The position numbers and the translations under genes were made by a program. The notes beneath the pieces are model-generated. The model saw only the letters and a program-made list of their open reading frames with translations. It was not told where the DNA came from and made no database searches. This document shows positions 37,239 through 56,779 of a stretch of DNA of 64,000 bases, piece by piece. Position 1 is the first letter of the stretch; each line of letters begins with the position of its first letter. Source of the stretch: Seiridium cupressi (lineage: Eukaryota; Ascomycota; Sordariomycetes; Amphisphaeriales; Sporocadaceae); the NCBI GenBank assembly GCA_036674765.1, contig JARVKI010000017.1:434001-498000 (forward strand), written 5' to 3'.

Positions 37239-40200
37239 TCAAAACGTCGGAGCAATCTTGATCTCTGCCTGACCCTGCCCAATCCGCTGAGACAGCTTGA
37301 ACGATCTGAGCGAACTGCTCGTCGACGACCTCGCACGCGAGTGTGTCTGTGAAAAGGGGTGTGAGGTCTGTCGCATATGCATCATCTTCGCCCGTTCTTC
37401 CATACTAGGTCGACGAGCGCCGTTCATGCTAACAGGCGATGAAGCTCGAGTAGATGCCGACCTGGAGCGAACGTTGAGTTTGCCCATCATCGAGCCAATT
37501 GCTGCGGCTGCATCGAGCGGCGGCGAGGGTGGGGGACGTGCTGATGGGACTAAGGAGGATGACGCGCCCATGTTGCCTTGGCTATGAAGCAATGGAGGCG
37601 AGTAGTTGGGGCCTGTAGGCATTCTCTTGATATAGAGTCCACCCCCTCCTTGGGCTGCCATCATGCCACGGGTCGGTGAGCGACTGGACGATCGGCTCAA
37701 AGGAGGCGTGATGATGCCGTTGGGAAGCGCCGGGAGGGAGGCTTTGGCCATGATGTCGAAATTCGCCGGCATGGGAGGCAGTCTGCTGAGGCGCCTGATG
37801 GCTCGCATGTTCTTGTTCACGAAAGAGGACATGTTACGGAGTGCAGTGCCGTTGGTATGTGATTCGTATGCAGAGGCACCATTCTGAGGAGCTTGTGTGC
37901 GCTGGATGTGCATTTCATTCAACGTGGGCCGAGAGGACGTGGTCGTCGGCTGGGGCTGTGGTGCCTCCACGAGTGTTTGCTGGATGTGTGACATGACCCG
38001 GTCAAAGTCAACCGTGGTTTGCAGCTTCTCAGGCATGTACGAGGGTTCAGAGCCCATCACGGTACTTTGGGTCAAGATGAAGAACGAGCCATCCCGAATT
38101 CGTTGACGCAGGATATGCCAACGAGTTCTGGCTGGATTCCGTTCAATCGCCGGTTTGACGATTGTATGTTGTGCCAGATTCGAGTAGAACACCTCGAGTC
38201 TCTTAGCCATGCGCTCCATGATCTGGATCAGGAACGAAGCTAAGGTGGTCAAAGTTTGAGAATCAGAGTGATCAATGTCAGCAATGGATTCCAAGGCGTC
38301 GATGCCATAACAAGCTTCTTGCCGGATGTCCTCCAGTAGGGACATGTCCAGCTGCACTGATGAGCTTGCGTATGCGATGATACCTCGCTCATGGAAACGA
38401 GCGCCGCCAGTATCCCTGACGAACTGGCCGATCTGAGCGACCTGCTTTGAGATACGCACCGCATGCTCCGATGTCTTGGCTCTCGCAATCACACCTAGAA
38501 CATCAGGAAGTTTCGTTGATGCGCCATCGGTTGACGAATTGGCGAGGGCGAAGGAAAGCTTGAGGATCAACTCCTGGAACTGAGGGCCGAACATGGCCGA
38601 GAAACCACCCTGAAGCAATCTCGACTGATACTGGTAGAAGGAGCGGATTCCCTTTATGTTGATGAGATCAACGCCCTTGAGACTGTTCTGGAACCACCAG
38701 TTATCTGCGTCAATCGGGGTGCCCATGTCTGATCCCATGAACCTGTTCATCTCAAATTGCTGAGCCACGAGCGTTTCAACAACAGTTCGGAGGTATCCAA
38801 GCCACATATCATAGAGGCTGTTCAGTTCGTCGCTCGCATGGAAATCAGGCTTCGGTGTGATGTTGCCGATGAAGTACTTGGTCAAGAGACTTGAGACTTC
38901 AGGGTTGTTGGTGTGAGCAAGATTGTCGAATGATTGGGAGCAATCCACGCCAGCGTTGGACCGGATGATCAAGACACCGCCTGGGTGAATTGGTGCAAAG
39001 TCCGTGACGTCGTAAACTTTTCCATGAACGGTAATCCAGACCGCCGTGTTCGGGCGATGTCCGGTATGGAGCGCCAGTTCAGACTGGGGAATGGTTGGTA
39101 GGTTGCAAGGCAGAGGCTTTGGTGTCATGAAGACATCAAGCATGAAACGCCTCTCGGCGAATGCGGTGGCTAAAATGGCGTCGCTCGATTCCATGGTAGC
39201 GCTGCGATGGTCGTAGATGGCTTTGCGAATGCCAGTCATGACTGAGTCAAAGACAGACACGGAGCCGCAGATGTAGATGTAGCCTCCCAGTCCTCCTTGC
39301 TTCTTACTCATGACGAGATCGCACACGGTATCTCCTTGCTCCATTATGAGCGAGTCAATGTATCGTGGTGGCGTTTGCTTCTCAAAAAGCTGTCTCGAGT
39401 ATCTATCGAATGCAAGACCACGGGAGTCGCGGGAGAATGCGGTGTGGACTTCCATGTGCCCAGCATGGACAAGTTCCCGAAGCTCGTCTTCGTAGCAGAA
39501 CTTCTCACGAGATTGCACTCCCAAATACAGGATGTTGCGACCAATACTGCCATCAGCAAAGCGTTTCTGCCAAAAGCTTCTGAATGGTGCAATACCGCTG
39601 CCGCCGGCGAAGAAAGCACAGGGAGCAGCGTTGTCAAGAGGCAGCTGGAAACAGACCGGGCGAGACACGCCGATGAGGAGATCCTCCTCGACGATCATTG
39701 AGTCTTCGCCAGATGATAAGGGGGGATTGAGGAAGCCACTGCTGACGCCGCTCCTGACTGTGGGGATGTTGTTTGCAAAGGTGTCGCATAAGTCGTAATC
39801 CGCCCTCGAGATTGTCAAATCCAAAGTGCTAGGAAGGAATTCCTCCGGGTAGCTTGAGATCGAGTAAGTTCTTGGGACTTCGATTTGGACAAGCTCTGCA
39901 AGCCAACTAAGGTTGTGTGACAGATCAAAAGCCTGGTCCCAGATTTGTGAAGGCGTGTCGACCACAGCAGCTTGTAACAGGTCCCCCAGAGATCCCCGAA
40001 CAGGCCATTCATTCGTAGCGAGAACTTGCAGGACTACCGTCGATGATGCCCTCAGCATGGAATGGACCTTGAGAACGAGGTCCTTTGTCAAGGGCGCAAG
40101 ATGACCCCGTCGAATGATGTCTCGAACAGCGAGCTTGGGGGTAATTTCTCGTGAAACTGAACCTAGATGCTCTGCAAATCTGCCCCATTTCTGGTTCAGA

Positions 40201-42260
40201 TCCACTGGGATGTCCAACATCTCCTCCAGGCCCAAAGCCAGAGCCACCTTAGCACATTCCTCCCAGCTGTTGAGAGGCATCACTGCGAGTCGATCACCAG
40301 GCTGAAACGTGACGCCGGTGTCCCGGAGATCCAAAGTGACCCTGGCAATCGAACGTTTAGAATCATTGTCAACGAAGTTGCGGCTGAGAACCCTGGATCG
40401 AAACCGACACTCTTCGAAGGTACCACGAATTTCGTTGGGTTCACCGAGCATCTTGCCACGGTACGGCTCGAGTCTCTCCTTCATAGCATCGGAGAACTGC
40501 TTATGCGTCTCCTCCCATGGTCGCATCTTGACTCCACTCTGACCAGAGTTGCCGTTCGTCTCGGTACGGCCTGTCTTCGCCGCGATCTCCAGAATGCCGA
40601 AAACCTTGTAACGATGAACGCCCTACAGTAGGTCAGTAGGATGAAACAGACAAAGGTTGGTGATATTTCTCACCATGAAGCCCCTCTCGCCTGTATAGGC
40701 CTCAACAATGCCATCCAAAACACCGTGGAGTCTGGGGTCGTTCGACTGTGCCACAAATTCCGGAATTCGGTAGTGATACTCAATAGCGGCAATAAAAGCT
40801 CGCATATTCGATGGCGACCAGGCTCGTAGATGAAGGCCCTCCGCGCCAAGGAACGAGTCATACTTTTTCCGACCAAGGAAGGCGTCCATGACTAAATATG
40901 GAGGGAACTGTAAACCGGACGAGGCAGGACACCTCTTCGATAGAGGTGCAGAGAACTTGGCCCAACGAACCCACTCGTCGCCTGACACATAATTCTCGCC
41001 CGAGCTTGGATTGGGGGAAATTGAATGGAATGCATTAGGCATGAGCTCTAGGATCTCCTTCAGTCTAATCATCTCGCGTAGGAGACCCTCGACGTCCCTT
41101 TTCATGACAGCTTCCTGACAAGCTGCAATGGCATCGGGCCCATGCTGGAAGGAAGCTGTAACAGATTAGTCGGGCCATGACATGAAGTAAACATATCTAC
41201 TTACCACTCGTGTCAGAGACACCCTTCAGGAATGCTCTCTCGGCCTGGTCGCCAAATATAGGCCAACGTAGGTCGGTGTTGTCGAAGCGTCCAACATATG
41301 GATACCTTGATTTTGGGTCCTTGACGCTGACGTTGTAGCTGCTCTGGTCGACAAATGTCAGATGTGGGATAGGCCTTCCCATCCGCTTACAGATCTGCAC
41401 GTAGGGTCGGCCAATGCTGCGTGGAAGGCCCTTGACCTCTTCTAGGACATCCTCGCCCCAGTCACACATAAGGCTGCTCTTCGTTCCTGATGTGACGCTG
41501 ACTCCCTCATGGCCATCATGCTTCTCTTCGTATCGATAAAGAGAGCAGAGCAGACCCAACCCAACCAAGGCCGCCCATAGTGCGCTGTCAGGGATCACGT
41601 CCTCTGTCCCTTCGACGACAGGTAGTGCAGCAGCAGCTTCGCGGAAGCGACCTCTGGACACACATCCTGGCATCCTTTCGCAAAGGTCGCTCCATGTCCG
41701 GCCCGGTGAGTTTGCCAATGCCGAAACTGATTCCTCCATATCCGGTGGCACAAAGCCATACTCTGCACTGAGGAAACCATCTCTCCAACCAGTCTTTGGC
41801 CCTATTTCCTCGGCTCTTAGTAGCACTTGACGGGCTGGCGCCCCTAGTGCTACTGCAAGAAGGTCTTGCTCATTGGCAGTGAGTGAGTCAATGTTTTGTG
41901 TCTTGTTCAGCTCTCGGTCCGCCGGTACATCGGAGTAAAGAATTTCGTTGATGGCCTTCCGTTCTCTGTTCGGCCATTAGTAGAAATCCTTGCGTTTGCC
42001 CGCCTAGTTGCTTACCTCATGCGTAGCCAGTCATTAGTCTCGATTCCATTGGGTATCTGAACAGCCATGTTAGCCGTGTAGACCATCGAATTAGTATAAT
42101 TGCCACAACTCACGTTGAAAGCCGCTCTTATATCGCCCGGTTGAGCGAAGCCTGAAAATGAACAACCTCTTGGCCCCATTTGGCTGCCCCGAACACTAGA
42201 TTTCCCTGCCGGACAACGGCCGCCGGCAACACCGGACACTGGACATGAGAGCTCGGACAT
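37239..42260 (-). CDS. Multidomain redox chimera: IDO/PrnB-like heme domain + NADPH/FAD reductase + cytochrome b5
   Basis: Five exons: 42260-42114, 42056-42016, 41965-41205, 41155-40674 and 40622-37239 (introns 57, 50, 49 and 51 bp, all GT-AG), one frame of 1604 residues. Residues about 60-505: alpha-helical region resembling the indoleamine 2,3-dioxygenase/PrnB superfamily, with P-H-L-T-F-V-D-Q-S-S-Y-N-V-S-V-K-D-P (263-280), an S-S-G-L-Q...D-A-F-L-G-R-K-K segment (395-414), and G-F-M-G-V-H-R-Y-K-V-F-G-I (475-487), where His480 is the candidate proximal heme ligand. Residues about 530-970: CPR-like FAD/NADPH module with R-T-Y-S-I-S-S (728-734), G-G-S-G-I-A-P-F (817-824) and Y-I-C-G (927-930); there is no flavodoxin/FMN domain. 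Residues about 1001-1064: cytochrome b5 with H-P-G-G (His1023) and His1047. A helical region (about 1070-1330) and a Ser/Pro/Arg-rich tail follow. Inferred: a self-sufficient NADPH-driven heme oxygenase. Substrate unknown; no signal peptide. Confidence 0.85.
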
Positions 42261-45687: not shown

Positions 45688-46733
45688 TTGGTACTCTCTT
45701 ACCGACAGTGTGCGGTGTGTAGTGTGGTCTTCCGAGTGTGGCAGCCGAATTGATTGAATTGACAGGACCAGGATTTTGAGCTATCTACGCCATAGCCACG
45801 ACGAGCAACAATTGGTCGTACCAGGCCCGGTGCTCACGACGATGACAACGATCCAGGTGTTGTTAAACAGCTTGATCAGGCTTCAGGGGCTTCAGTTGGT
45901 AGCAGTTGGGGCGTCAATTCGTGTGTATTCATCTGGGTTGCCACCGTGGCCATGGTATGAAAACTCTACATATATATCACTTAGCAGCTGCCACGCAGCT
46001 GCCCCGCTGGTTACCAGCTGTCTCCCACCATATACTTCGACACACCCCTTCAGCTTATAGCAATCTACAAGCTGGAAATCCACCAATTTGGCTTCAGGTT
46101 CTCGTGGAAAGCTTTTACGGCACCAAAAACTACGGCCTTATCGCCAATTTTATTACCTGCTACGCTTTTGATTACCACATCCGTCGATAATTCATTCAAT
46201 ACAACCCATTGATAACTCCCGCGAGTATCCATCGATAGCTCCCACCCCTTTTGGTGGCACACTGCTAACTCGCACCAGGTGCGCTGGAGAGCTGGACCAA
46301 CCAAGCTCTCTTTTGATACGAGGGCTCCTCACCCTCAGGCTCACGCCCCTCGATTCTACACCGAGATTTTCTAATCAGCTACTGGAACACACCTAGCACG
46401 CTGATAGGTCACCGGACTAACCAGGCTCCCTCTTATAACCCTTGCCAGTTAGTTGGCAGGACCTCCACACAAAAAACGCGACACTCCCGGTATTGGCCTG
46501 GCGTCGGAATTCCTCTAATTTCAATTATACGTAAACTAACAAAATATAACTAGAAATATTTAATTTTATCAGCTTTATTTAAGTCGGCATTTCTTAATAA
46601 TATAGCTTTTTTTAGATTTTTTATTTTCCTTTTAATTATTATGTTATAAGCCGGCCAAAACGGTAGGTTTTGGTAAAGAAAGCGTGAGATGTATCTCGTT
46701 TTTTGTGTGGGGGTCCTATTGGTTAGTATGGGG
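45684..46733. other. Transition region between the gap and the AT-rich island
   Basis: About 1 kb of near-normal composition becoming AT-rich after about 46510. It contains no supportable gene. Some short phrases recur (for example near 46290 and 46410), suggesting old repeat remnants. Confidence 0.4.
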
Positions 46734-46876
46734 TTAAGCTGCTCCCAACCCCGGGTCTGATTCTTCTAAATCAGTTAAGCAATCTTTCTGAAAATAACCT
46801 CTCCTCCCATACTTATAACATTTAGGGCGACCCTTTTGCTGGGTTGCCGACCGCTTTTTAGGCTGCTTGTAAGCTG
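46734..46876 (-). pseudogene. Degraded retrotransposon Gag fragment (CCHC zinc knuckle)
   Basis: On the minus strand a short frame reads K-G-R-P-K-C-Y-K-Y-G-R-R-G-Y-F-Q-K-D-C. This is the spacing of a Gag CCHC knuckle, C-x2-C-x4-H-x4-C, but the second Cys and the His are both Tyr, the changes expected from G-to-A (TGY to TAY) and C-to-T (CAY to TAY). The frame continues into the antisense of the LTR-like repeat at 46877. It is a remnant, not a functional gene. Confidence 0.6.
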
Positions 46877-47238
46877 TTGTAACGAATATACTATCGTCAG
46901 GATAAACCTTAGGATAATACACTGGTGTTGGGTTTATACTAACAGGGTACGTAATGTAAAATAGGAATACTAAATCTTAAGGATAAGAATATAATCGTTA
47001 AGGCTTAATAGGCCTTACTTATGGGTAGATAAATGCTTAGATTAATCACTAAGGTAATAACTATTTATATAAGAAACGTTTATTATATATATATCCATTT
47101 ATTTCCTTACTGATCTTGTTTGCTTATGTCTGCTTATGTCTGTTTAAAGTGTTGATCTTAAGCACTTTTAATTAAAGGCCCTACCGTTTAATTAGAACAG
47201 TGGTACCCACCACTGTTGGTACAAACATTCCTTTAGGC
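46877..47238. repeat. LTR-related repeat, weakly mutated copy
   Basis: Begins TGTAACGAATA and aligns without large gaps to the starts of both 475-bp LTRs (47244 and 54121) over about 260 bp, to about 47140, then diverges. It keeps TG, CA and CC dinucleotides that are TA, TA and TC/TT in the other two copies, so it approximates the unmutated LTR. The boundary at 47238 is set only by the target site of the next element. It may be a truncated or recombinant LTR. Confidence 0.7.
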
Positions 47239-47243
47239 CAGAG
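47239..47243. repeat. Target-site duplication, left copy (CAGAG)
   Basis: The five bases abutting the left LTR. The matching five bases right of the other LTR (54596-54600) are TAGAG, differing by one C-to-T change in a CpA context, as expected if the flank was also mutated. Confidence 0.7.
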
Positions 47244-47718
47244 TATAACGAATATATTATCGTTAAGATAAACCTTAGGATAATATATTAGTATTGGGTT
47301 TATATTAATAAGGTATGTAATATAAAATAGGAATATTAAGTTTTAAAAAATAAGAATATAATCGTTAAGGTTTAATAAGCCTTATTTATAAGTAAATAAA
47401 TATTTAAATTAATTATTAAGGTAATAATTTATTTATATAAAAAGTATTTATCGTATATATATTTATTTATTCCTTTATTAATCTTATTTATTTATATTTA
47501 TTTAGTAAGCGGAATTAATTACGGTTAATATTAATTAGTAAGTTTTATTAATTACTTTTAATCGTTAGCTTTAATTAGTTTTTATCGTTTGCTTTATTTT
47601 TACCGTATTAATATTTGGAATGTTTGCTTTTTACGCGTCCGTTTTTCTTTATTTTGGTCCGTATTCGCGGAATAAGGTTTATTCCGTTCCGGTTCTTTTT
47701 TAACTTATATTCGTAATA
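47244..47718 (-). repeat. 3' LTR (coding orientation minus), 475 bp
   Basis: Direct repeat of 54121-54595 with the same length and many scattered transitions. Ends TATAACGAATA and TTCGTAATA form a short inverted terminal repeat. It is flanked outside by the target duplication at 47239-47243. Confidence 0.88.
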
Positions 47719-47723
47719 TTAGG

Positions 47724-47736
47724 TCTTCTTTTTTTT
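47724..47736 (-). other. Probable polypurine tract
   Basis: An uninterrupted pyrimidine run on the plus strand (purines on the coding strand), five bases inside the 3' LTR, where plus-strand DNA synthesis of an LTR element is primed. Its position supports the minus orientation. Confidence 0.5.
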
Positions 47737-50621
47737 AGCTTAACCCTTTAAGCCCGAGGTTTTATAAATAAGTCGTCGTTATTTATTTCTTTAGTTTAAT
47801 ACGTTTCCCTTTTTTTTTATATTTTTATAATATATATTTATTATATTAAGTTGTATTTAGAAAATTAAATAAAAAAAAAATTCTTTATCGTTTTATTTTA
47901 CCGTTTATTATTATTTTTTTATAAATTCCTTTAATAAATTTAGTTTTAAAGTTATACTTTATATTCGTTATTTTCGTCGCGATTAAAAATATATAATAAT
48001 AAAAGGTTTAGTAAAATGTAAAAAATATATTTACGCTAATTATTTTTACGATAATAACGGGGTCCCGGTTTTTTCTTTTAAGCGTATTATAAAAAAGTAC
48101 CGTTGATTAATATAAGAAAAGCAGGCTATTAAAGGCCACCTTTTGGCTTTTTAATAATAAACGAACGAAGCCATTTCGAGGCTGGTTCGCTTACGAAAAT
48201 AGCGTAAATTTGTTCGTATAAAAGGTGCCGAATTAGTCCGTTAGGGTCTTCGATTTTTAAACGAGCTCGAAAAGCAAGAACGTATGGAGTTAAAAGCTGT
48301 AATCGTCGCGTAGTCGCACGAAGCTGTCGGTATCGTAAATTAAAGCGTTATAAGCTTATCCTTTAACCTTCTAGGCGGCTCTTTAGATTTTAAAAGTATT
48401 ATTTAAAAGCGATATAACCTTTAATATATTTTTTAAATTCTTAAATATTTTTTTTAAATAAGTAGTTTTTTTATTTAACTAGATATTAAAGGCCTTTACT
48501 TTTTTTATAATGCTTTAATATTTTTTTTACTTTATATTCTCGCTAATTTGCTTCGGTTTTTAACGTAATATCGATTTTAACGTTTTTAAACGCCGGTTTA
48601 AATAAGGATATATATACGGTAAAATAGTTCCGCATTATTTTTAATAACGATAATTTAAAATTAATTTTTAAAATAATTTTATCGATTTTAAATAATTTAA
48701 GTTTTTTAAAATTAAATTTATCGTTAAATCGCTTTATTTTAATATTTTTACGTAATAAATAAACTTTATCTCTTTTTATAAAAGTTAATTTTTTAATCCT
48801 TTTTTTATTATAATATTATTTTATTTATTATTAAAAAAATAAAAGTTTTTATTATAAGGATTATTATAATAATTAAAGCTTATCGACGTATTTAATAGCT
48901 TTAAGCGCTTATTTATTATAAAGTAATTCTTTAATAATATTAAAATTATACCCGAAATTAGCGTAAAATAATGTTATTTTAATAAATTTATTAATTACGT
49001 TATTATAAGCAAATTACGTAATTAATAATAATTATACTTAATTATTTTATTTATAATTAACGTAATATTATAAGTATTATTTAAATATTTAATTTATTTA
49101 TTTTATTTATTTATTTATTTATAAATAAAACGCCGTAAATAATTTATATTTAGTTTTTAATTATAATATAAAGAATTATTAAAATTTTAACGTAAAAAGT
49201 TTATTTTTATTAAAGATAAATTCGTTTAGCAGCTTATATTAATTAATTATAATTTTAAAAATAATATAAACGAGTTTTATAACGTCGCTTACTTTTTTAT
49301 ATAAGATAAAATATCCGTATTTTATAAATCGTTCCGTAATAACAAGGATATTATTATATTCCGCGTTTATTATTAATTTTTTTAATAATAATAATTTAAT
49401 AATAAAGTTTATAACGACCGATTTCTAAGCTTTATCGGGTAGTATTATTAATTATAATTCTTCGTACGGTTTATATTAGGATGCCTTAGCTTTATTATAA
49501 AGGTCGTAATTCTTAATAATTTTAAAAACACGCTATTTTAAGTTTTCGCAATTAAACTGCTATTAAATCCTTTTAATAATTTTAAAGATTTTTATATATC
49601 CGTTAAATAATAATTCGTAATATTTTTTAATAAGTTCTTTTCAGAATTTTTTAAAAAGGTATATTTTCTTTTAATATATTAAAACCTCCGTTTTTTAATA
49701 TTTATTATTAATTTTCTCGATTTATATTTTTTATATAGTTATACGGTTAATAACGTATAAGTTTATAATCGGTACGAGGTTTTTTTTTTCGTTAATCGTA
49801 AAGATAATATATATTTTTTTAAGCGCTTTTTAAAAATGGTCCGATTTACAACTTAACGCGTCGGTTTTTTTATTTTTTAATCCCTTTTAATAAATAATAA
49901 TAAAGTTAAAATCTATTAAAAACTTTAATTATCGTATTTATTATTTATTAAATTCTTTATTATTAATAAATAATATTAAATTTTTATAATTAATATAGAT
50001 TTTAATTTAATATATTATTTTATTAAAGTAGTATTTTTATTTTTTAAATGCTTTAATAATTATTATTAATTCTTTATCGTGGATTTAATAGTTAAGCTTT
50101 AGTTTGTTAAGTTTTTTAGAGTAATAAGCGATTAGGTACGATTTCCCGTCGTTTTTTCGCTGGCTGAGTTAACCGCTAATCGTATAATTCGACGCGTTAG
50201 TTTTAACCTCGAATTCTTTATCGGGGTTGGCTATCGCTATAATAAGTTTTTTCGTTATCTTTTTTTTAAGTTTTTTAAACGCTTATTATTCGATATAAAT
50301 TTATTAAAATAATAAGTCCTTTTTAGTTAAGTTCGTTAAAAAGCTTTTTACTTTTGCGAAGTTAAAGATAAATATTTTATAATAATTCGTTAACTTTAGA
50401 AAGGATCGTATATTTATAACGTTTTAAAGCGTTAACCATTTTTTAATTGCTATTATTTTAAAATCCTCTATTTAAACTTCTTTTAAAGATATTATATATC
50501 CTACGAAAGTGACTTTTCGCTAATAGAATTTACTTTTTTTTAAGTTTATTAAAAGGTTTATTTTTTATAGTTTTTTAAATATTATTATAACGTATTATTT
50601 ATATTTTTTAATTATATTTAA

Positions 50622-50711
50622 AAATATAAATATATTATTAAAATAAACTATTATAAACTTATTTAAAACGTTTCGTAATATTATATTAATTATATTTTAA
50701 AAGTTTATAAA
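50622..50711 (-). pseudogene. Reverse transcriptase core remnant
   Basis: Minus-strand translation gives N-V-L-N-K-F-I-I-V-Y-F-N-N-I-F-I-F, with a stop further upstream. It has the pattern of the RT catalytic box in Ty3/Gypsy elements (V-x-Y-x-D-D-I), the two catalytic Asp having become Asn by G-to-A change. No catalytic activity is possible. Confidence 0.65.
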
Positions 50712-53041
50712 TACGTTAATAAATTTAAAAAGTATAATTAAATATTCGAAATATTTATATTTATTACGGAATATTATTTTTTATTCGTCGCCTTTTTTAA
50801 TTTTAATTAATTTATATACGTTAAATAAGTTTAAAGTTATAAACTAATTAACACCGTGTAATTTATTTCGCAAGTTTTTAATTAATAATAAAGGGTATTT
50901 ATTTTTAATCGTAATTTTATTAAGTTTTTAATAATCGATATAAAGCTTTTAATTAAGCTTTTTATCCCTGCTTTTCTTTAATATAAAAAGTATTAAATAT
51001 TTTACGGGTAAAATAAATTCTTTAATTTATCCCTTTAATAATATCTCGTTAAAGTATTTTTTAAATGCTTCCTTATATTATAACCGTATTAAATAAATAA
51101 GTATAAAATATAGTTTTATACCTTTTTTTAAAGGTATTTCGTAATCGAACCTTATATATATTAATAATTTTATATTTAATTTTTTATTAAATAAATCGTT
51201 AAATTCTTTATATTCTTTAAGTATTTTATATATAAATTTCAGCTTAATATCCTTAATTATAACGTAAAATTTAAATATTTTAAACTTATTTAAAAGTCCT
51301 TTTATTAAATATTATTTAAAAGCTAAGTCTCTTTTTAATATATTTTATTAAAATTAGTTTATATTTTAATTTACTCGGGGATTACTCGCTTATAATTAAG
51401 GTATCTTTAAAATTAAATCGTAATTTATAATTTTTATAATATTATACGTAAATCTTTTATTATAATTTTAAATATAAATTTAAATATACGTAATTTTTAT
51501 ATTAACGATTTTATTATTATACGTTATTAATTTTTTATTTATAATTTTAAATTAATAAAGCGTTTTCTTCCGTTTTTATAATATTTAAAACTTATTAACG
51601 ATTTATAATAAAATAAAATTTCCTTAAGCTTTTATATTAATTAAAGCCTTAATATCCTAATTTATAATCCGCACTTTAATCGTAAAGTGGTTATATACGC
51701 TCGTTTTTATAGTATATAAAAACTTAATATTTAACCGTTATTATCCCGTTATATACGGTTTTAATCGTTTTTTAAACGCTTATCGCGTCGGTTATATCGT
51801 CGTCGCTTTTTTTTATTTTTAGCTTCTTAATAAATAAAAGCGTAATTTTCGTATAAATCTTCCCGGTTTTAATATATTAAGAATTTATTATATTTTTATT
51901 TATTAACTCTTTATTTTATTTTTAACTTTATAAAAACTTATAATATTATTCGCGTAAAAGGTATTAATCCTTCGTTTCGTCGTTATATTTAAATATAATC
52001 CGTAATTTTATAAATTTATAATTTAACTTTTTTATTACGTTATTTTTCGAATATTTCTTTAATTAATTTTTTAAAATTGTTTTCTTTTTCCTATTAACTT
52101 ATAATAATACTAGGTAAAAGGGGTTTTAGTTTAATTAAGAGTCGTTTTGCTTTATTATATTCCCTAATCTGTTTTTAAGCTGAGCTTTTCTCGTTAGCGT
52201 GGATTAAGTATTCGTCGATTTTATATTAGTTTTACGTTCGTAACTTTAAAGCGCACTCGCGTATTCTTTATAAGTCGCTGGTAATTACCGCGTATCCTTA
52301 AGGGTTTTTATAAGTAATAATAACGTTTTTTACTTACTTTTTATCTTATAATATCCCGATAAGGTTTAATTTTAGTTTTTCGGGAAAGAATTTATATTTT
52401 AGTTTCTTTTTAAAGTGTTAATTATATAACCGGTTAATATAGCTAATTTATAATAGGTTTATATAGTTTAAGTGTCCCGTTCCTAATTAGGCGTTGTTTT
52501 TAAATACTATATAAGGGGTATAAGCGTTTTTAAACCTATCCTTTATAATAGCTTCTATTAAGACGTTCTTAAGTTTTAAGGCGTTATAAAATGACTTTTT
52601 AAAGATAATTACCGTTTTAAAGTCGTTTTAATATCTAACGGATTACCGTATTATAACGGGAACCTTATTAATTCTTTCCTTAATTAGTCGTAGTTTTAAT
52701 ACGTCGGCTCGATTTAGGTTTTTTTCTTTTTTTTGCTATTATTCCGTACGGCGGATAATAACCTGGTTCTAGTCTAATTTATCTCCGCTTTCGTTGGAAT
52801 ACGCAAAATATCCGTAAATATTAATTCGTCGTTCCGCGGGGCTCCTTCCTATTACCGCGATAGTCTTAGTAGCCGGTATTATAAGGTATTATCCTGCTCC
52901 GTTCTTATTTAATTTATATATTTTATACTAGTCGTTATAATATGCCATTTAAGACAGGCTATCGTGCTTAGCTAGTTTTTTTATAATAAGATTAATTTGT
53001 CGTCTTTTTAAGATTAGTTTAAAAAATCGCTCCTTTTTAAG

Positions 53042-53089
53042 CGAGCGGTATTCGTTAGCAAAATATCCTATCTTTTTATAGTTATAATA
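53042..53089 (-). pseudogene. Gag zinc-knuckle remnant
   Basis: Minus-strand translation reads Y-Y-N-Y-K-K-I-G-Y-F-A-N-E-Y-R-S. The spacing is that of a CCHC knuckle in which all four zinc ligands are now Tyr (TGY or CAY changed to TAY). It lies about 1 kb inside the 5' LTR, as expected for the end of Gag. Confidence 0.65.
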
Positions 53090-54120
53090 CGTTACCGATT
53101 TTTTATCGTATTTACCGTTTTTTTACTTTATAACGTCGAGGTTTATAAATTTATTATATCCTTTATAAGATGTTTTCTCGCGTTATTCGTTTTTTGGGCG
53201 ATATTAATTATTTTATCGTAACCGGTTAGTATTAACTTAAGGCCGTATTTACATATTAATTCGTAGCTTTTTTAATTATCCTCGTTTTTCGAGTTATTTT
53301 TCGTATAAACAGTTATCGATTTTAATAATCCTCTTAATATAAATATTAAAATCGTTTAATCGATCTTTTTTAATAACTTCGTCTTTAATACCTTTTTTAA
53401 GCCTTATATAAAAGAGCGTTATAAAGGTATCGTCGTCGTTTTATTTAGTTTTAAAAGCGATTTATTTAAATTTTAATATATATTTAATTATAAAGTTTTT
53501 TTATTTAAGTTATATAAGCTTTCTTTTTATTATATAAACTTTATTTAAATTGTTAAAAGTAGTTTTAAAACGTCGTTTAAACTTATTATAATTAGCGAAG
53601 ACTTTTTTAATCTTTTCGTTTTTATTATTTTTATTATTATTAAAATAATCTTTTATAATTAGTTTAAATTATTTAAAAACGTTGTTTTTTAAGAATCCGG
53701 TAACGTATAATATTTTATTAGAATTATTATTAATATTATCTTTATAAAAACGTAGGTATATTTTTGCTTAAATGAAAAATCCCTGGACGTTACCGTCCTT
53801 ATTATTATAAAACTATAATGTTAATATTTTATAATTAGTTTTATAAGCGATAAGTGTTATAATAAGGATAACCGCGATTTATTTAACGAATTATTAATTA
53901 TCGTTATAAACACTATCGTAAGCCTATTAAAAGTTAGCTAATTATATTATTAACTCTTATTATTATTATTATATTTAATATATTATACGTAAAGCGTTAA
54001 GTCCGCTAATTGGATTTTTAACGTTATTTCCGTTAAGAGTTTAAAATGCTATTATCGCTTATAAAGTATTACTTAATAATTTTTAAACCGGAATACATAT
54101 TTAAATAAAAATAATTAAAA

Positions 54121-54595
54121 TATAACGAATATATTATCGTTAAAATAAACCTTAAAATAATATATTAATATTAAGTTTATATTAATAAAGTATATAATAT
54201 AAAATAGGAATATTAAGTTTTAAAAAATAAAAATATAATCGTTAAAACTTAATAAGCTTTATTTATAAATAGATAAATATTTAAATTAATTATTAAAATA
54301 ATAACTTATTTATATAAAAAGTATTTATTATATATATATCTATTTATTCTTTTATTAATCCTATTTATTTATATTTATTTAATAAGCGGAATTAATTACG
54401 GTTAGTATTAATTAGTAAGTTTTATTAATTATTTCTAATCGTTAGCTTTAATTAGTTCCTATCGTTTGCCTTATCTCCACCGTACTGGTGTTTAGAATGT
54501 TTGCTTTTTACGCGTCCGTCTTTCTTTATTTTAGTCCGTGCTCGCGGAGTAGGGTTTATTCCGTTCCGGTTCTCTTTTAACCCATGTTCGTAATA
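54121..54595 (-). repeat. 5' LTR (coding orientation minus), 475 bp
   Basis: Direct repeat of 47244-47718. The half nearest the right flank (about 54470-54595) is less mutated than the rest, retaining GC-rich words. It is followed by the right target-site copy. Confidence 0.88.
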
Positions 54596-54600
54596 TAGAG
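54596..54600. repeat. Target-site duplication, right copy (TAGAG)
   Basis: Matches CAGAG at 47239-47243 with one CpA-to-TpA change. Confidence 0.65.
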
Positions 54601-55330
54601 GTGCTGGGCACTTGTTTGTTACCTGCCGGTGTGGTCCGTGCTTCCCGACCGGGCTACGTTCGTAATAGCTGTTTCGTTAAAAAGGGGTATAAGGGGTTTA
54701 TTAATTTCAGGCCTTGCCGGCGTAGTTGTAATAAAGGTTAAATAAGTGGATTACGTCCTTTTAAACGGCTTTTTAACGCTTTTAATAACCTTTTCCCCAC
54801 CTTTTATACTCTTTTATTAGCTTGTTTATAACGTTAAAAATAATTTTATAATAATTATTAAAAAATATTAGATAATAAGTTTATAATATATAATAATTAT
54901 ATTTAAAAGATTTATTTTTAAGGAATTTAAATTAAAGTGCGGCGAAGCCGTAAAAAGTTTTCTACGATATAACTCCGTTACGTTAACGCTTTATTAACGT
55001 TATAACGGCTGCTTTAGCATAGTTATAAATTTATTTTAAATTATTTTTTAAAAATATTTTATTTTTAAGAAAATAATTTAAAACCTAATTATAAATAAAT
55101 TATAAATAATAAATAAAATATAATAAATTATAAAAAATAAACGAAATAAAATAAAATAAAATAAAATAAAATAAAATAAAATAAAATAAAATAAAATAAA
55201 AATAAATTTATAATAAATAAAATAAATTTATAAAATACAAATTAAAATAAAAATAAAAGGAAAAAAAAAGACGAAAAAAAAAGGTCTTTATAATATTCTT
55301 AAAATAGCGAGAACCCACTTTAAAAAGCGC
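54601..55330. other. AT-rich flank of the retrotransposon (older interrupted repeat)
   Basis: The first 250 bp are mixed in composition; from about 54840 the sequence is extremely AT-rich, like the element interior. The retrotransposon therefore appears nested in a previously mutated repeat. No coding remnant could be read. Confidence 0.5.
55144..55203. repeat. (AAAAT)n microsatellite
   Basis: About twelve tandem AAAAT/AAATA units near the right edge of the AT-rich island. Confidence 0.93.
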
Positions 55331-56779
55331 TATACCGGAAACAAAAGTGCCGTTAAACCGGCGGCGGATTGCCGGCCAACAACTTTACCCACCCAATAAG
55401 AGCAACGAAGACGTCGACCCTAACACCGACATTGAGTAGTGTTGAAGGCTAGCACCTCCTCCACCTATAGGTCGCTGGTGGCCAGCTGTTTGACAGCTGG
55501 CTGCCAGGAGGAGCCAGTCAGTGGAGCTTCAGGTACAAGATTTGCACTGGTCGCAATCACAGATTGCGGTCACAGATTCAATACAACACACATGCTAATC
55601 TACTGCTACCCAACTGTTTGACAAGTAGAACTAATGGAATGATATGCAAGGTGGGACAGTGGCCGACATTTTCAGTCGGTGCCTCGCCATTGATAGTTCA
55701 ATATGTGTTATGAAAAGCAATCATAACTGTTTTGAATTCATGCAATCGACGATCATATATTCCGCAATGAGCATTAACAACGCTCGCCGTCTGACCCGGG
55801 AGATCAGCACGCCTAGAAAGAAACATAGCTAGGCAGCGTACGTAATCCTTCCGTGCGGTTGCAGTCGATCCTCTGATCGCAGTCGCATCTATCATTCATC
55901 CCCCACAAAAGCTCCCCAGCTCTCAGCGCCGACCAGGGGTTCGTGTTTCATCGTCGCTCAAGTGCCGCGTCGCGGAAGTCAACCCACCCACTGCGAACCA
56001 TGGGGACCCAATCACCGGCGAAAGCCGCAAACGCGGAGACTAGCCCTTGGTTTGTAGGGATGTGATGGGTTGGCATTATGTAAGGAAACATGCTGGACAG
56101 GGCCTTGAGATGCCAAGCTGTTATAGGACGTTTCTGTATTGTGGATTTCGACCCTACCTAAAAATAAAGTCTATCGTCATTTGAGGATATGGCTTTCGAG
56201 GTGCACAACTTGTCGAGTTTCAGAGATCGGTCGACGAAGTCCGGAAAAGCGGCTTGGGGACATATGTGATTCCAGAACAGCTTGACGCCTGGGGGATAGG
56301 CATGACGAACTTCATGGGTCGATCATCGCGATTGTCGGATCGCTCCATGTCCACGAACCAAGCCGTGCAGGACCGGGCATGGCGATACCCCTCTGGTATG
56401 GCACAATGACCATGCTCAATTCACCTTCGGTGTTGTCTTAATCTCATCTCATTTACGTCCGGGTGTCACCGTACCCATTGTCTCGATACCACTTCGTCTG
56501 ATATTCGATGTGCCATATCGGTAATCATCGGCCGTCCAAGAAAATCCCAGAAGGTTCTCTACTACGCCGATGGTCAAGTCTCACGCGGCTTATGCCTAGG
56601 TAACCACTCCATATGCACGTCTGACGGCACCTTTCCTGCAGTTGGCATTTGCCAAGCACAACTAACCGACTATATCTGTTGCTACCAGTCATTCAAAAGC
56701 CGCTGTTTTCTGGCACCGAAAATCTAAAGGGCAGGTGAGGTTGATGAGATACAACCTAGCTCACCCAGGTAGAGACTCG
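55331..56779. other. Region right of the AT-rich island
   Basis: 1.45 kb of normal composition up to the GH92 stop. Short frames at 55439-55832 have no motif. Nothing supportable besides the GH92 3' UTR. Confidence 0.45.

Follow-up and report, generated by a model that had tools for sequence, protein, structure and literature searches.

We analyzed a 64,000-nucleotide stretch of the Seiridium cupressi genome (contig JARVKI010000017.1, positions 434,001 to 498,000 of the forward strand), hereafter the window, with respect to a gene on its minus strand that runs from 42260 to 37239. When four introns were removed, five exons formed a single frame of 1604 residues; the coordinates, exon number, protein length and single frame given in the initial annotation were exact. 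The introns (42113-42057, 57 nt; 42015-41966, 50 nt; 41204-41156, 49 nt; 40673-40623, 51 nt) are all of the GT-AG type and each contains a branch-like CTRAY site; their assignment was based on sequence signals and frame continuity. Intron 4 lies immediately 5' of the position aligned to the proximal His of indoleamine 2,3-dioxygenase (IDO), and exon 5 stays open over 1127 codons without interruption. Analysis of the spliced protein with Pfam (listing limit E 5; the HMMER filters drop most matches above approximately 0.1) returned five families, four of which exceeded their curated cut-offs: IDO, FAD_binding_1, NAD_binding_1 and Cyt-b5, in that order. The succession originally proposed, namely an IDO-family N-terminal domain, an FAD/NADPH reductase and then a cytochrome b5 in one frame, was thus borne out. 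The gene has the following features.

37239..42260, minus strand: five-exon gene with a predicted product of 1604 residues (in-frame splicing)
42114..42260, minus strand: exon 1, encoding the N-terminus, which has Cys-Pro motifs at residues 6 and 16
42016..42056, minus strand: exon 2
41205..41965, minus strand: exon 3, N-terminal part of the IDO-type domain (splicing and Pfam; 29.4 bits in the IDO-family search of the genome, cut-off 26)
40674..41155, minus strand: exon 4, middle part of the IDO-type domain (splicing; phmmer to human IDO1)
37239..40622, minus strand: exon 5, stop included, encoding the reductase, the b5 domain and the C-terminal region after the inferred end of the IDO-type domain
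41016..41769, minus strand: Pfam IDO match, residues 129-363, spanning intron 3 (E 9.9e-9 in the whole protein; E 5.5e-10 in residues 1-507)
40995..40997, minus strand: Glu370, the phmmer counterpart of Arg231 of human IDO1 (Ser363 by MAFFT)
40614..40616, minus strand: His480, candidate proximal heme ligand (MAFFT alignment and spacing, in a weakly supported half of the domain)
39810..40403, minus strand: FAD_binding_1, residues 551-748 (E 2.1e-9)
39420..39611, minus strand: NAD_binding_1, residues 815-878 (E 1e-8; PDB matches)
38859..39083, minus strand: cytochrome b5 domain, residues 991-1065, with His1023 of HPGG and His1047 (E 3.1e-15)
38019..38831, minus strand: residues 1075-1345 of the C-terminal region, with no family assigned and perhaps helical (very low-confidence model)
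37239..38018, minus strand: low-complexity tail (residues 1346-1604) in which Ser, Pro, Ala, Gln and Arg are abundant, plus stop

The N-terminal part of the protein was examined by profile and sequence searches. PF01231 scored 34.9 bits with the whole protein and 39 bits with residues 1-507 (cut-off 26); the match covered positions 8-211 of the 412 in the profile and left the second profile half unmatched. IDO was the sole Pfam family listed for residues 1-507 (limit E 10, with filters that drop most weak matches). In a phmmer comparison with PDB sequences, human IDO1 was aligned with residues 231-476 (best E 7.2e-6). IDO1 or IDO2 accounted for 25 of the 26 sequences listed to E 10; the remaining one was a MerR regulator at E 1.2. 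PrnB was absent from these 26 PDB sequences and from the Pfam listing for residues 1-507, and the PrnB-like relationship that the initial annotation had suggested alongside IDO was therefore not upheld. The IDO-type domain is preceded by an N-terminal extension of approximately 120 residues. A CPVSG...CPAG pair was noted at the N-terminus (42162-42260, minus strand), and a similar CPVSG...CPV pair lies within an insert of an IDO paralogue of this genome (C25, below); the N-terminal Cys-Pro motifs may be heme-regulatory motifs.

The whole genome (45.4 Mb in 228 contigs) was also searched with the IDO family. This analysis revealed seven matches, representing C5, C25 (two pieces), C38 (two pieces), C19 and the window gene. 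Three of these loci are near-full IDO genes (C5, C25 and C38), with the C38 frame broken by two stops. The window gene scored 29.4 bits compared with 564, 359 and 340 bits for the main pieces of C5, C25 and C38, respectively. The match at C19:451532-452341 is a divergent IDO-family piece in which the equivalent of Arg231 is kept and the C-terminal part is different, and it represents a second atypical IDO of the genome. A hidden Markov model (HMM) was built from the remaining four IDO copies or pieces in the genome and applied to the window protein with 500 shuffles as a control. Residues 1-507 scored 7.9 bits, with aligned stretches at residues 133-184 and 232-274; no shuffle reached this score (0/500; best reported, 0.9 bits).

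A His in the place of the proximal heme ligand had been predicted, and MAFFT placed His480, in an F-x-x-x-H context, in register with that ligand. The distance from the R-x-x-x-P motif to His480 was 49 residues, compared with 48, 50, 50 and 57 residues in the four other genome copies. This register and spacing make His480 the likely proximal ligand. The substrate pocket was changed. Arg231 of human IDO1 binds the Trp carboxylate, according to the available text of PMC12921851, and its equivalent, read by eye, was Arg in each of the four genome copies or pieces besides the window gene. The position is occupied in the window protein by Glu370 (phmmer) or Ser363 (MAFFT), neither of them Arg, and no Arg is present between residues 348 and 379. 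Because an equivalent of Arg231 is missing, plain L-tryptophan is probably not the substrate, which weakens the earlier suggestion of an indole or tryptophan substrate.

Analysis of the reductase module identified the FAD and NADPH motifs that had been quoted previously, RTYS (residue 728), GGSGIAPF (817) and YICG (927), together with AFSR; we take RTYS, GGSGIAP, YICG and AFSR to have the roles that they have in cytochrome P450 reductase (CPR). The FAD_binding_1 match covered positions 9-201 of the 222 in the profile. Among PDB sequences, the best relatives of the module were the reductase of neuronal nitric oxide synthase (NOS; 1f20, E 4.2e-16), the flavoprotein of sulfite reductase and CPR, and in NCBIfam it was nearest to sulfite reductase alpha, at scores far below the cut-offs. 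No flavodoxin (FMN) domain was listed by Pfam for the spliced protein at the limit and filters given above, and Flavodoxin_1 was not found at the window locus in a genome search to E 1. The same model detected Flavodoxin_1 within 1.3 kb upstream of eight of the ten other FAD_binding_1 places in the genome (four of the ten were covered by the Pfam scan), and the description of a reductase without a detectable FMN domain stands. The two places without it were C26 and C40. At C26, pyruvate-oxidoreductase-type domains are joined to a CPR-type FAD/NADPH module with no flavodoxin; this locus presumably encodes a MET10-type sulfite reductase alpha subunit, and thus the loss of FMN from a CPR-type reductase has precedent. 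The C40 locus (C40:144368-145072) carries a CPR-type FAD/NADPH reductase frame of 647 residues, and no flavodoxin match was found in its N-terminal 227 residues. The b5 domain contains both His residues of the expected pair, His1023 of HPGG and His1047, which we take to be its axial heme ligands.

Approximately 530 residues follow the b5 domain. No above-threshold match to residues 1075-1345 was found in Pfam, NCBIfam or PDB, and no paralogue of the C-terminal region was identified among the 25 matches of a genome search that scores the best candidates only. A single-sequence predicted model of the b5 domain and C-terminal region was helical with a mean predicted local distance difference test (pLDDT) score of 36, at which even the helices of the C-terminal region are a guess. 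The peak 19-residue hydropathy mean of the protein was 1.65 (from residue 186), with no clear sign of a membrane anchor. Globin-like stretches in the C-terminal region were noticed by eye; the protoglobin family scored 15.7 bits against a cut-off of 25 (E 0.13 with the whole protein and 0.015 with the region by itself), the window locus was not reported in genome searches with the globin and protoglobin families to E 10, and the globin idea was dropped. Globins are also the concern of PMC3820574, as far as its available text goes. A second IDO domain in this region was likewise rejected (best BLASTP E 0.43; IDO HMM, -2.3 bits). The segment of approximately 270 residues directly after b5 (1075-1345) may represent a third domain with a function of its own.

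With moderate confidence, we favor a self-sufficient heme oxygenase that belongs, among the His-ligated, heme-dependent aromatic oxygenases, to the IDO branch and probably does not act on free L-tryptophan. In this proposal, which infers the ligand (His480), the direction of electron flow, catalysis and the substrate from sequence, NADPH would reduce FAD in the reductase module; FAD would pass single electrons to the fused cytochrome b5, which would take the place of the missing FMN domain; b5 would reduce the N-terminal, IDO-type heme from its ferric state; and the reduced heme would bind O2 and oxidize an aromatic substrate, probably other than free L-tryptophan. Direct transfer from FAD to b5 is established in b5 reductase and nitrate reductase. 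As far as the available texts go, b5 has been proposed to reduce IDO under physiological conditions (PMC4191572), and human IDO1 is supported in vitro by NADPH-CPR, whether b5 is added or not, although the in vivo reductant is called unclear in the same 2026 preprint (PMC13142367). The built-in chain fits both re-reduction of the heme and true monooxygenase turnover, and the changed pocket favors an oxygenase acting on another aromatic compound. A more specific version, in which the protein would be a natural His-ligated heme monooxygenase, an electron-consuming IDO-family counterpart of P450 BM3 with b5 replacing FMN and a non-tryptophan substrate, is plausible but tentative.

Several observations weigh against an oxygenase of this kind. 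Residues 376-505, which hold His480, scored 1.7 bits with the paralogue HMM, a score equalled or exceeded by four of the 500 shuffles (365 reported by the program), one of them at 15.5 bits. The HMM alignment of these residues comprised the R-x-x-x-P region and stopped short of His480, so the ligand assignment rests on the MAFFT register and the spacing. phmmer and MAFFT also differ on the residue that faces Arg231 (Glu370 versus Ser363). The C-terminal GTGGT loop of C5, C25 and C38 was not clearly recognizable in the window protein, and oxygenase activity may therefore be lost. The IDO fold is predicted from sequence, and the architecture is known here from one protein. In addition, PrnB is inactive with b5 or CPR according to the available part of PMC11791213.

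The altered pocket positions are also what would be expected if the IDO-type domain were not an oxygenase but an NADPH-driven heme reductase, an O2 or NO binder or a redox sensor, or if the reductase and b5 served the C-terminal region. The large family-less region directly after b5 agrees with such a role, and in gastropods an IDO has turned into an oxygen-binding muscle protein (PMC1457004, available text). We nevertheless consider this explanation unlikely, although it deserves attention, since the complete NADPH-FAD-b5 chain fits an electron-consuming acceptor and the candidate proximal His is kept in its spacing. A true tryptophan 2,3-dioxygenase of the kynurenine pathway, with a reductase and b5 that merely keep the heme ferrous, is improbable. 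It would agree with the IDO-family Pfam match, and Arg380, 10-17 residues further on, could replace Arg231; dioxygenation by IDO, unlike a monooxygenase path, requires no electrons beyond the first (PMC12921851, available text). However, the Arg231 equivalent is kept in 4/4 other copies while the window protein has no Arg between residues 348 and 379, the genome already contains three near-full IDO genes, and the family score of the window gene (29.4 bits) is far lower than theirs.

The chimera could finally be an artifact in which two neighboring genes were wrongly joined, as the join depends on a single 51-nt intron predicted from sequence signals. Against this, exon 5 starts with the aligned end of the IDO domain and continues into the reductase with no stop, all four introns have GT-AG borders and a branch-like site, and the frame of exon 4 meets a stop when intron 4 is retained. 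A single exon encodes His480 within what is inferred to be the last part of the IDO-type domain, followed by the reductase, b5 and the C-terminal region, which argues against separate mRNAs. We therefore regard a wrong join as very improbable.

The favored reading, a self-sufficient oxygenase of the IDO branch, was compared with known systems. The window protein shares with IDO (PF01231; human IDO1 and fungal IDO alpha, beta and gamma) a family match over the cut-off and a candidate proximal His in register, and it differs in its N-terminal extension of approximately 120 residues, the lack of an Arg231 equivalent, and the fused reductase, b5 and C-terminal region. To our knowledge, IDOs are stand-alone proteins. 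Human IDO1 reportedly works with CPR and b5 as partners (PMC13142367, available text), and the window protein has both module types fused. With the diflavin reductases (NOS reductase, sulfite reductase flavoprotein, CPR and P450 BM3) it shares FAD_binding_1 and NAD_binding_1; in contrast to them, it has no detectable flavodoxin/FMN domain and carries b5 after the reductase. In NOS and BM3 a heme oxygenase is fused to its own reductase, as is proposed for the window protein. The C26 locus likewise carries a CPR-type FAD/NADPH module with no detected flavodoxin, but there the module is joined to pyruvate-oxidoreductase-type rather than heme domains. Nitrate reductase and flavohemoglobin also fuse an FAD reductase with heme, and the one-electron carrier of nitrate reductase is b5; both differ from the window protein in the type of FAD module, the catalytic domain and the domain order. 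PrnB, MarE and other heme-dependent aromatic oxygenases are superfamily relatives of IDO (PMC11791213, available text), and there was no sequence match to them among the listed Pfam and PDB matches.

No description of an IDO-reductase-b5 fusion was found in the open-licence literature among the matches listed; in their available portions, PMC10269595, PMC5371717 and PMC7341153 concern other genes or domain lists rather than such a fusion. We also looked for relatives of exon 5. Scans with six 8-residue patterns each matched two stretches in viral contigs and 11 in prokaryote genome contigs, and no relative was confirmed in either set; as the patterns were drawn from one sequence, only close relatives could be found. 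A tblastn search of exon 5 against plasmids returned 82 records, the best 30 of which lay within exon-5 residues 38-540, essentially the reductase, with coverage of at most 41%.

Examination of the surrounding genes by Pfam, using ten selected neighboring open frames (18-33 kb lay outside the selection), gave no indication of a common pathway. Pieces of Zn-cluster and fungal transcription factors were identified at 33-35.7 kb and an exonuclease-like gene at 44.4 kb, with matches to SET, rhamnosidase-C, Zds_C, APH, sulfatase, GH92 and GH125 at greater distances. Zn-cluster genes and short introns probably reflect a filamentous fungus. Positions 46000-56000 form an AT-rich block (18-33% GC compared with approximately 50% around it) that contains diverged direct repeats, such as 47244-47543 and 54121-54420 (92%), and resembles a repeat island mutated by repeat-induced point mutation (RIP).

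With an IDO-type heme domain naturally joined to the two types of partner that act on IDO in vitro, the question of the IDO reductant becomes testable in one purified protein. If the proposed electron path is true, the gene would provide genetic evidence for a CPR-type reductase and b5 as the physiological route to IDO-type hemes. If the protein is a monooxygenase, it would add a His-ligated class to the self-sufficient heme oxygenases, with b5 doing the job of FMN.

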